Below are positions 60,415 to 63,532 of a stretch of 64,000 nucleotides of DNA, one piece after another. A program made the translations under genes and the position numbers. Origin of the DNA: Xanthomonas hyacinthi. Its GTDB lineage: Bacteria > Pseudomonadota > Gammaproteobacteria > Xanthomonadales > Xanthomonadaceae. The stretch spans positions 3,541,001 through 3,605,000 of the forward strand of contig NZ_CP043476.1 in the NCBI RefSeq assembly GCF_009769165.1, in the 5' to 3' direction. The notes below the pieces were generated by a model. It did not search any database, had not been told where the DNA came from, and saw only the letters and a list, made by a program, of their open reading frames with translations. Numbering within the stretch: the stretch's first letter is position 1; each line of letters starts with the position of its first letter.

Positions 60415-61542
60415 ATGTCCGACGTCGTTGACCTCACCTGCGACCTGATCGCCCGCCCCTCGGTCACGCCGGACGACGCCGGCTGCCAGGACCTGATCGC
60501 GCAGCGGCTGGCGCGCGCCGGCTTCGCCATCGAGCGGTTGCGCTTCGGTCAGGTCGACAATCTGTGGGCCACGCATGGCAGCGGCGCGCCGGTGCTGGCG
60601 CTGCTCGGCCATACCGACGTGGTGCCGCCGGGGCCGCGCGAGGCCTGGGCCAGCGATCCGTTCGTGCCGCAGATCCGCGACGGTGTGCTGTACGGACGCG
60701 GTGCCGCCGACATGAAGAGCGGCGTGGCCGGGTTCGTGGTCGCCGCCGAGCAGTTCGTCGCCGCGCATCCGCAGCACCCCGGCACGCTGGCGCTGCTGCT
60801 GACCTCCGACGAGGAAGGCGATGCGCTGGACGGCGTGCGCAAGGTCGCCGAGACCTTCCGCGCGCGCGGCGAGCGCATCGACTGGTGCATCACCGGCGAA
60901 CCGTCCTCCACCGAACGACTCGGCGACCTGCTGCGGGTCGGTCGCCGCGGCAGCCTGTCCGCCACGCTGCTGGTGAAAGGCGTGCAGGGCCACGTGGCGT
61001 ATCCGCACAAGGCGCGCAATCCGATCCACCTGGCCGCGCCGGCGCTGGCCGAGCTGGTCGCGCGGCATTGGGACGACGGCTACGAGAGCTTCCCGCCGAC
61101 CAGCCTGCAGATCTCCAACCTGCATGCCGGCACCGGCGCCAACAACGTGATCCCCGGCGACCTGCAGGTGGCCTTCAACCTGCGCTACACCCCGCACTGG
61201 GACGCGCCGCGGCTGGAAGCGGAGATCGCCGCGCTGTTCGACCGCCATGGCCTGGACTACACGCTGCGCTGGCACCGCAGCGGCGAGCCGTTCTACACCC
61301 CGGAAGGGCGCCTGCGCAGCGTCGCGCGCGAGGTGCTGGGCGCCTTCGCCGGCGCGGCGCCGGAAGAGAGCACCGGCGGCGGCACCTCCGATGCGCGCTT
61401 CATCGCGCCGCTGGGCGCGCAATGCATCGAGGTCGGCCCGGTCAACGCCAGCATCCACCAGGTGGACGAGCATGTGCGCGTCGCCGACCTGGAGGCGTTG
61501 CCCGCGCTGTACCTGCGCCTGATCGAACGGTTGCTGTCGTAA
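60415..61542 (+). CDS. dapE: Succinyl-diaminopimelate desuccinylase
   Basis: The 375-residue dizinc M20 peptidase removes succinate from N-succinyl-LL-DAP, two steps after DapD. Metal ligands are in [11 protein letters not shown] (His), [13 protein letters not shown] (Asp), [13 protein letters not shown] (catalytic Glu and ligand Glu) and the late His in [10 protein letters not shown]; the lid/dimer domain ([20 protein letters not shown]) is complete. The short gap upstream contains GCGCTCCTACA, a half-site of the REP unit at 7001. Confidence 0.97.
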
Positions 61543-61580
61543 CAGTTGCGCCGTCCCGCCGGCCGGGTTACGTTCGCCGC

Positions 61581-61676
61581 ATGACCTCGCTGCCCGCCCT
61601 CCGCCCGATCCACGCCAACGGCCGCAATCATGCGCTGGCGAATAATCGTGCGCGGCCGATGCGGGTCTGCGACTAG
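61581..61676 (+). CDS. Asn-rich leader peptide of asnB
   Basis: A 31-residue frame (ATG 61581, TAG 61674-61676) with Asn codons at positions 13, 16, 21 and 22 (HANGRNHALANNRARP). The end of the frame, 61654-61666, reads GGCCGATGCGGGT, an exact copy of the 3' side of the terminator that follows. No Shine-Dalgarno is clear, and a weak promoter TTGCGC-17-TACGTT would start RNA near the ATG itself. The arrangement is that of a transcription-attenuation leader, with Asn as the sensed amino acid. Confidence 0.72.
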   Translation: MTSLPALRPIHANGRNHALANNRARPMRVCD

Positions 61677-61723
61677 GCGCTACCGAAACACCACGCCCAG
61701 TATTCAGAAAACCCGCATCGGCC
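61654..61723 (+). promoter_or_regulatory. Antiterminator pairing region of the asnB attenuator
   Basis: Segment 61654-61666 (GGCCGATGCGGGT) and segment 61711-61723 (ACCCGCATCGGCC) are perfectly complementary over 13 nt. A ribosome stalled at the AAT AAT codons (61641-61646) leaves the first segment free to pair and so blocks the terminator; a ribosome that reaches the TAG covers it and lets the terminator form. Confidence 0.7.
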
Positions 61724-61738
61724 GATGCGGGTTTTTTT
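61708..61738 (+). terminator. Attenuator terminator upstream of asnB
   Basis: AAAACCCGCATC-GGCC-GATGCGGGTTTT is a perfect hairpin followed directly by more T (seven T from 61732). It lies 99 bp before the asnB start and downstream of the leader frame. Its 5' arm can pair instead with 61654-61666, giving the antiterminator. Confidence 0.9.
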
Positions 61739-61837
61739 ATGTGTGAAATCTTTCGCCGCATCGCGGTGCCGGCCGGCACCGCTCCAGGCCATCGCCGCAA
61801 CCACCTGTTACCCCCCACACCATCCAGGAGCTTTTCC

Positions 61838-63532
61838 ATGTGTTCGATCTTCGGCATCTTCGGCCTGCAACCGGGCGACGACCTGCAGGCGCTGCGCCGG
61901 CAGGCGCTGGACTGCTCGCAGCGGCAGCGCCATCGCGGTCCGGACTGGAGCGGCGTGTATGTCGACGACGGCGCGATCCTGGTGCATGAGCGCCTGGCCA
62001 TCGTCGATCCGGCCGGCGGCTCGCAGCCGTTGCTTTCCGCAGACGGGCAACTGGCGCTGGCGGTGAACGGCGAGATCTACAACCACCGCGAACTGAAGAA
62101 GCAGCTGACCCAGCCCTACGCGTTCCAGACCGGCTCGGACTGCGAGGTGATCAACGCGCTGTACCGCGAGGAGCAGCCGGCGGCGCTGCTCAACCGGCTC
62201 AACGGCATCTTCGCCTTCGCGCTGTGGGACAAGGCCGCCGGGCGCGTGCTGATCGCGCGCGATCCGATGGGCGTGTGCCCGCTGTACTGGGGCCACGACC
62301 AGCAAGGCCGGCTGCGCGTGGCCTCGGAGATGAAGTCGCTGGCCGACAGCTGCGCCGACGTCGCCCAGTTCCCGCCGGGCCATTACTACGACAGTGCCAG
62401 CGGCGAATTGGTGCAGTACTACCGCAAGCCGTGGCGCGACTACGCCGCGGTGCAGGGCGTGCAGGTGAGCAAGCAGGAACTGCGCGAGGCCTTCGAGCGC
62501 GCCGTGCACCGCCAGCTGATGACCGACGTGCCGTATGGCGTGCTGCTGTCCGGCGGGCTGGATTCCTCGCTGGTGGCGGCGGTGGCGGCGCGTTTCGCAC
62601 GCAAGCGCATCGAGGACAACGACGAGGCCGAGGCCTGGTGGCCGCGCCTGCATTCGTTCGCGATCGGCCTGAAGGGTTCGCCCGACCTGGCCGCCGCGGC
62701 GATCGCCGCCGAGTCGCTGGGCACCGTGCACCACGGCTTCGAATACACCTTCGAGGAAGGCCTGGACGCGCTGCCGGAAGTGATCCGGCACATCGAGACC
62801 TACGACGTCACCACCATCCGCGCGTCCACGCCGATGTTCCTGCTGGCGCGGCGGATCAAGGCGATGGGGGTGAAGATGGTGCTGTCCGGCGAGGGCAGCG
62901 ACGAGATCTTCGGCGGCTATCTTTACTTCCACAAGGCGCCGAACGCGCGCGAATTCCACGAGGAGCTGATCCGCAAGCTCGACGCGCTGTACAACTACGA
63001 CTGCCTGCGTGCCAACAAGTCGATGATGGCCTGGGGCGTGGAGCCGCGCGTGCCGTTCCTGGACGTGGAGTTCCTGGACGTGGCGATGCGCATGGACGCG
63101 CAGTACAAGATGATCGACAAGACCAGCGGCGGCGCGATCCGCATGGAAAAAGGCGTGCTGCGCGCGGCCTTCGAAGGCTATCTGCCCGATTCGATTTTGT
63201 GGCGGCAGAAGGAGCAATTCAGCGACGGCGTCGGCTATGGCTGGATCGATGGGCTCAAGGCGCATGCGCAGGCGCAGGTCAGCGACCGCGAACTGGCCGC
63301 GGCCGACAAGCGCTTCCCGGTCAACCCGCCGCAGACCAAGGAAGCCTATTACTACCGCACGCTGTTCGAGCGCGCGTTCCCCACGCCGGCCGCGGCCGAG
63401 ACGGTGCCCGGCGGCAAGTCGATCGCCTGCTCCTCGCCGGCGGCGATCGCCTGGGATGCCAGCTTCGCGACGATGGCCGATCCGTCCGGCCGCGCGGTGG
63501 CCGGGGTGCACGAACAGGCGCTGGAAGCGTGA
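61838..63532 (+). CDS. asnB: Asparagine synthase B (glutamine-hydrolysing)
   Basis: The 564-residue enzyme makes Asn from Asp, glutamine and ATP. Cys2 is the glutaminase nucleophile (MCSIFGIFG); RHRGPDWSG, LVHERLAIVDPAGGSQPLL and VNGEIYNHRELK form the class II amidotransferase domain. The synthetase domain has the PP-loop GVLLSGGLDSSLVAAVAA (about 229-246) and LSGEGSDEIFGGYLYFHKAP. CCAGGAG precedes ATG 61838. It is the only gene behind the Asn-codon attenuator. Confidence 0.97.
   Translation: MCSIFGIFGLQPGDDLQALRRQALDCSQRQRHRGPDWSGVYVDDGAILVHERLAIVDPAGGSQPLLSADGQLALAVNGEIYNHRELKKQLTQPYAFQTGSDCEVINALYREEQPAALLNRLNGIFAFALWDKAAGRVLIARDPMGVCPLYWGHDQQGRLRVASEMKSLADSCADVAQFPPGHYYDSASGELVQYYRKPWRDYAAVQGVQVSKQELREAFERAVHRQLMTDVPYGVLLSGGLDSSLVAAVAARFARKRIEDNDEAEAWWPRLHSFAIGLKGSPDLAAAAIAAESLGTVHHGFEYTFEEGLDALPEVIRHIETYDVTTIRASTPMFLLARRIKAMGVKMVLSGEGSDEIFGGYLYFHKAPNAREFHEELIRKLDALYNYDCLRANKSMMAWGVEPRVPFLDVEFLDVAMRMDAQYKMIDKTSGGAIRMEKGVLRAAFEGYLPDSILWRQKEQFSDGVGYGWIDGLKAHAQAQVSDRELAAADKRFPVNPPQTKEAYYYRTLFERAFPTPAAAETVPGGKSIACSSPAAIAWDASFATMADPSGRAVAGVHEQALEA

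Follow-up and report, generated by a model that had tools for sequence, protein, structure and literature searches.

The region between dapE and asnB of Xanthomonas hyacinthi very probably encodes a ribosome-mediated transcription attenuator that would sense Asn-tRNA and control asnB. Positions are those of the window, i.e. the whole 64,000-nt stretch analysed (GCF_009769165.1, NZ_CP043476.1, 3,541,001–3,605,000), and the features described lie on its + strand. asnB (61838–63532) encoded a glutamine-hydrolysing asparagine synthase of 564 aa (NF006949, 878.1 bits, cut-off 499) and was preceded by AGGAG at 61827–61831; its upstream neighbour was dapE (TIGR01246, 549.2 bits, cut-off 361.8), which ended at 61542. 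The intergenic region contained a short ORF with many codons for asparagine, the amino acid that AsnB makes, a terminator between this leader and asnB, and an antiterminator which excludes the terminator and is kept by paired changes in relatives.

The leader ORF (MTSLPALRPIHANGRNHALANNRARPMRVCD) had no NCBIfam match. It was read directly from the ATG at 61581 to the TAG at 61674–61676, giving 31 codons with Asn at codon 13 (61617–61619), codon 16 (61626–61628) and codons 21 and 22 (AAT AAT, 61641–61646), as the initial annotation had described; the control region thus spans 61617–61646. At an assumed Asn codon frequency of 2.5%, at least four Asn in 30 codons has p = 0.006. Taken alone, the Asn codons of the window were moderately striking, and the case therefore rests on conservation.

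Relatives were collected by scanning for AsnB in named records (80 loci, the best 80 of a longer list) and in 299 Lysobacterales genomes, 216 of which had AsnB at E 1e-100; 100 upstream regions of 510 nt were taken, and 21 more distant loci were added. Upstream regions of 181 loci were searched and yielded 142 candidate ORFs. Eight with record titles outside the order (L050, L056, L062, L065, L067, L072, L075 and L080) were left out and L047 was added by hand, giving 135 leader loci, including the window and one locus labelled only Pseudomonadota (L007). Merging identical sequences left 126 distinct leaders, 124 of them with a terminator by our rule (L028 and L029 failed), and 65 of the 124 loci were aligned. 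Among the named loci L001–L043, leaders were found in 40 of 43. In the other three, L014 (Holophagales label), L020 (Rhodococcus) and L041 (Deltaproteobacteria), no leader was found in the 450 nt before asnB; their AsnB proteins were 75–83% identical to that of the window (L020 75%, L014 83%). The out-of-order labels of L014 and L020 could reflect transfer, wrong labels or mixed assemblies.

Conservation in relatives, which the initial annotation had named as support for its proposal, was found: the leader frame was conserved with Asn codons strongly preferred, and the repeated segment and terminator were conserved with changes on both sides and a spacing that fits a ribosome. Asn accounted for 789 of 4177 codons (18.9%) over the 126 distinct leaders upstream of asnB, compared with 0.07% and 0.22% in the other forward frames of the same leaders and 0.9% in one reverse frame. 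Each leader had three to ten Asn codons (AAC 405, AAT 384 in all), with a run of at least two in 123 of 126. Because the ORFs were initially chosen by Asn density, part of this enrichment comes from the selection itself, which played no role in the results on promoter, pairing and spacing. A run of two or more Asn occurred in 121 leaders of this comparison, three of which had no recognisable core; in 94 of the 121, the last such run ended 11 or 14 nt upstream of the pairing core. These two distances are near the length by which a ribosome extends beyond its A site.

The intrinsic terminator (61706–61738) consisted of AGAAAACCCGCATC-GGCC-GATGCGGGTTTTTT at 61706–61737, with a stem of 61706–61719 and 61724–61737, a GGCC loop at 61720–61723 and a tract of seven T at 61732–61738. 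The antiterminator segment CGGCCGATGCGGGT (61653–61666), at the end of the leader, pairs with 61711–61724. Direct reading confirmed the terminator and the repeat of its 3′ side at the leader end. The repeat had been given as 13 nt: GGCCGATGCGGGT at 61654–61666 is indeed identical to 61720–61732, but with the preceding C the full identity is 14 nt (61653–61666 and 61719–61732), the longest common stretch. A common stretch of at least 13 nt between the shuffled leader and the following 75 nt occurred in 2 of 2000 dinucleotide shuffles. A generic promoter and terminator scan reported neither element at the leader region. We think that it misses the terminator because the stem runs into the T tract, leaving too few T, and the promoter because the −10 element is far from consensus.

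The terminator 5′ arm had been proposed to have two mutually exclusive partners, and in the 65 aligned loci this pairing was kept by two-sided changes. Antiterminator pairs formed in 81.4% of cells (29–44% if slid by 1–3 columns), with a covariation of 0.152 versus 0.086 shuffled and 38 cells changed on both sides. Terminator pairs formed in 94.3% of cells (20–53% if slid), with a covariation of 0.321 versus 0.152 shuffled and 85 cells changed on both sides. For both helices, neither the number of pair positions that changed on both sides nor the number of pair types was above that of shuffles. The duplex of leader end and 5′ arm was better than the mean of its own shuffles in 122 of 124 loci (mean energy −21.9 versus −13.4 kcal/mol), the two sides pairing in register around a GCGGG core. 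In leader, 5′ arm and 3′ arm, the base that follows this core was C/G/C in 59 and T/A/T in 32 of 124 loci. At the opposite edge of the core G/C/T was found in 26 of 124 loci, Rhodanobacter L021 among them; here the leader pairs with a base unmatched by the 3′ arm, so that pairing is kept and not mere repetition. When 60 sampled leaders were paired with the arms of all 124 loci, their own arms gave −21.0 kcal/mol and all arms, own included, a mean of −17.8 kcal/mol; the own arm was at least as good as 76% of arms on average. This contrast, by which own arms pair only somewhat better than others, is weak because relatives share arms.

A −35 element, TTGCGC (61546–61551), was predicted for the leader promoter with its first T 35 nt 5′ of the leader ATG, and base counts at −13 to −7 before the ATG pointed to a probable −10 element, TTACGT (61568–61573), a weak match to consensus. 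In 133 of 135 loci a TTG[CG] box began 35–37 nt 5′ of the leader ATG, with the box itself having helped in the choice of start. Where only one in-frame ATG preceded the Asn run, so that the box played no part in the choice of start, it was present in 85 of 87 distinct leaders; where several ATGs were possible, at least one of them had it in 35 of 37 leaders. Two of the 126 distinct leaders had no such ATG and are outside these counts. Among other ATGs of the same regions, 7 of 520 on the leader strand and 31 of 698 on the opposite strand had the box. In usual promoter geometry, a −35 box at this distance puts the transcription start on the A of the AUG. The conserved box therefore suggests an RNA start at that AUG: the leader RNA probably starts at or next to 61581, AUG first, and is predicted to be leaderless. 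A C directly preceded the chosen start in 119 of 126 leaders, and a Shine-Dalgarno-like word was found before the leader start in 19 of 126 versus 112 of 126 before the asnB start. Coralloluteibacterium (L076) had no leader, and its AsnB was more distant (64%); there a similar −35 box was found 34 nt upstream of asnB's own ATG, so the asnB message may itself be leaderless.

The computed fold of RNA 61581–61745 (−67.8 kcal/mol, z −3.4) contained the antiterminator. When bases covered by a ribosome were masked, the terminator probability in the window was 0.01 without a ribosome, 0.02 with one at Asn 21 and 1.0 with one at the stop codon. Before the 3′ arm was made, the leader held the 5′ arm with a probability of 1.0 for the Asn stall versus 0.2–0.33 for the stop. 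At equilibrium of the full RNA the terminator exceeded 0.5 in 105 of 124 loci without a ribosome, 98 with a stalled ribosome and 123 with a ribosome at the stop; since it prevails even when the ribosome is stalled, the switch must be kinetic in most relatives. Over the 124 loci before the 3′ arm, the mean probability of the leader holding the 5′ arm was 0.80 without a ribosome and, for four footprints, 0.85–0.86 for the Asn stall and 0.31–0.44 for the stop. At this stage the antiterminator was still favoured in 29 to 45 of 124 loci, depending on footprint, when the ribosome was at the stop. The proposal that the TAG is placed so that a terminating ribosome covers the leader segment is thus borne out by masked folding and spacing, clearly in the window and partially in some relatives.

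Enterobacterial attenuators have a 1:2 hairpin which shields the antiterminator segment when the leader is untranslated, a feature that we do not regard as essential to this class of attenuator. No such hairpin was seen in the computed folds: a hairpin does form in the leader of the window, with the antiterminator segment staying free, and before the 3′ arm the antiterminator formed without a ribosome in 108 of 124 loci. An untranslated leader should therefore read through, and the folding model suggests that the untranslated state of the asnB switch is probably ON.

In the proposed mechanism, RNA polymerase would start at the leader AUG and a 70S ribosome would probably load on the bare 5′ end. 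With plentiful Asn-tRNA the ribosome would reach the stop codon and cover the antiterminator segment 61653–61666, whereupon the terminator 61706–61738 would form and transcription would end before asnB. With scarce Asn-tRNA it would stall at Asn 21 or 22, its front edge just before 61653 if the ribosome is taken to extend 12 nt from the first base of the A-site codon; the segment would then pair with 61711–61724, no terminator would form and asnB would be made.

A stalling ribosome might instead mainly control something other than termination, such as RNA stability, or the leader RNA or peptide might act in trans. Termination would yield an RNA of about 158 nt, and a trans role of attenuator RNA and peptide is reported in the accessible text on rnTrpL and peTrpL of Sinorhizobium meliloti (PMC7298713). 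The T tract and the mutually exclusive pairing, however, point to termination; the N-terminal part of the leader is highly variable, and its conserved C-terminal end coincides with the antiterminator. We consider a main role outside termination improbable. Sensing of asparagine or tRNA by a T-box, a riboswitch or a protein-binding antiterminator, with an incidental ORF, is extremely improbable. Asn genes in Firmicutes are controlled by T-box leaders, which bind tRNA directly and have no leader peptide. They share the signal, tRNA-Asn charging, with the attenuator proposed here, but the asnB leader had a leader-peptide ORF and no T-box match, and its conservation sits in the reading frame (AAC and AAT being exchanged) and in the switch helix. 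No T-box or riboswitch was among the 12 Rfam matches listed for 61400–62000 at E up to 5, all of which were below gathering scores. The His_leader model had no match in the genome of the window at E 0.001.

A covariance model of the leader end and terminator (R1) was built from the 65 aligned loci, the window included. At 46 bits or more it matched 138 of 299 genomes of the order, all with AsnB; 35 of the 138 matched loci were among those used for building. Among asnB genomes the matches comprised 71 of 73 in family f1, 64 of 68 in f12 and 3 of 3 in f2 (138 of 144), and 0 of 72 in other families. The six exceptions (G091, G237, G067, G230, G277 and G279) had a more distant AsnB of 63–66% identity. 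All 138 matches preceded asnB in the same orientation: the window itself, 93 in regions where the leader was read, and 44 placed by coordinates, at distances of 29 to 358 nt from the gene. The genome of the window had one strong copy (88.9 bits; next 31). The 46-bit cut was chosen after seeing the R1 list, and uninspected sites in element-bearing genomes reached 43.8 bits. In a class-wide scan with stricter filters, 240 of 369 genomes, at least 5 of the 369 being from this order, matched at E 0.01, and the 46-bit cut was used on account of such loose matches; outside the order, none of the matches listed for this sample exceeded 36.5 bits. We take those matches, which were uninspected, to be ordinary G+C-rich terminators. 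Very diverged relatives may be missed by R1.

The hairpin could also be read as the terminator of dapE and the short ORF as chance, since dapE, encoded on the same strand, ends about 160 nt upstream of the hairpin. However, dapE was seen in just 13 of 41 loci (0.3 to 2.5 kb of upstream DNA covered, less than 2.5 kb in five), so the element is independent of dapE: it stays with asnB where dapE is unseen, and Asn codons, frame, promoter spacing and antiterminator are conserved. We rejected this very improbable reading in favour of an attenuator of asnB, which the element follows.

Several sites stood apart from the main set. In two loci of one genus (L139 and L141), which the ORF search missed, R1 placed the element 358 and 278 nt before asnB; the sequence between terminator and gene looked repeat-like by eye. 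In family f7, genome G082 (L187) carried MFAIYNTINTTNNRLLRSAGSF and then a terminator, at about 144 nt upstream of asnB, a putative diverged Asn leader with a longer promoter-to-ATG distance. Its R1 score of 41.1 bits is within the range of uninspected matches (to 43.8), so this case rests on position and Asn codons. Second R1 matches away from asnB (G211:C4:167044-167141, 43.8 bits; G235:C1:3443087-3443182, 42.6 bits) could be other attenuators or plain terminators.

AsnRS was found in the genome of the window, while GatB and AsnA were not found at E 0.001. Charging of tRNA-Asn should therefore need free asparagine, which is likely its only source, and the proposed Asn-tRNA signal makes sense. 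AsnB appears to be the only dedicated asparagine synthase found in this genome. AsnB-like stretches (L082 and L083, 42% and 35% identity) lay inside a 1204-codon frame at G000:C1:2719360-2720430.

Other amino-acid genes of the same genome also had leaders. The ilvC leader (L206, MLHRHTSPKPTRLPAAPRADAAASLLVLVLITSPTSAGRTGV) had TTGACA 36 nt before the ATG and a terminator with a T run, and appears to be a leaderless attenuator for branched-chain amino acids; judged by eye, CCCGCAC of the terminator could pair with GTGCGGG of the leader. The thrA leader (L208, MPHAFALAICLAPPARRRAAAPCAGITTGITTHTIRPVRPVVFA) had Thr and Ile codons and TTGACA 37 nt before the ATG; no clear T run followed its hairpin, and control may thus be exerted on translation. 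Neither had an Rfam leader match. The promoter-to-AUG spacing shared by the two is suggestive only, as the box scan covered few short ORFs with a looser box and two ORFs with no obvious leader role were also boxed. Upstream of hisG (L205) no His-rich leader was seen, and an open frame lay directly upstream. In the accessible part of PMC9413887 a TrpR-like repressor is implicated in his control in Xanthomonas oryzae, and this frame may be a candidate for its gene. The shared spacing of the thrA and ilvC leaders makes a general design in the order possible, with asparagine as a new specificity. Amino-acid attenuators of Lysobacterales would then be leaderless and unshielded, and the asnB switch would read both tRNA-Asn charging and translation of the bare 5′ end, the untranslated state being ON; we advance this tentatively and rate it just short of even.

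Ribosome-mediated attenuation is known from trp, his, leu, thr, ilv and phe operons (PMC1183508), and the word asparagine is absent from the accessible text of that source. The asnB leader resembles enterobacterial attenuators in its short ORF whose control codons specify the amino acid made by the downstream enzyme, in the arm shared by antiterminator and terminator, and in the stop codon beside the antiterminator. It differs in using asparagine, in being probably leaderless and in having no computed shielding hairpin. A precedent for an RNA beginning with ATG is trpL of S. meliloti, where, as far as the accessible text goes, the 5′ end of the attenuator RNA (rnTrpL) is the ATG of the leader ORF (PMC7298713); that case differs in serving Trp and belonging to Alphaproteobacteria. 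Leader peptides of Actinobacteria serve cysteine, leucine and tryptophan, with some attenuator parts missing in many cases (PMC1262725), and so extend the amino acids served by leader ORFs; the accessible part of that source does not contain the word asparagine either. The initial annotation had suggested that an asparagine case may be new. Our literature search, whose scope excluded the proteobacterial survey of Vitreschak and others (2004) and most subscription papers, found no asparagine-sensing ribosome attenuator, and asparagine would therefore be a new specificity of a known mechanism, in an unusual layout that is predicted to be leaderless and probably default-ON.

With this attenuator, asparagine would join the amino acids known to be sensed through a translating ribosome, in a group of common bacteria of plants and soil, and a way of controlling AsnB, the one dedicated asparagine synthase found in this genome, would be explained. 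Should the leaderless start hold, it becomes directly testable whether coupling of transcription and translation works with bare-5′-end loading, and what the switch does without ribosome loading.
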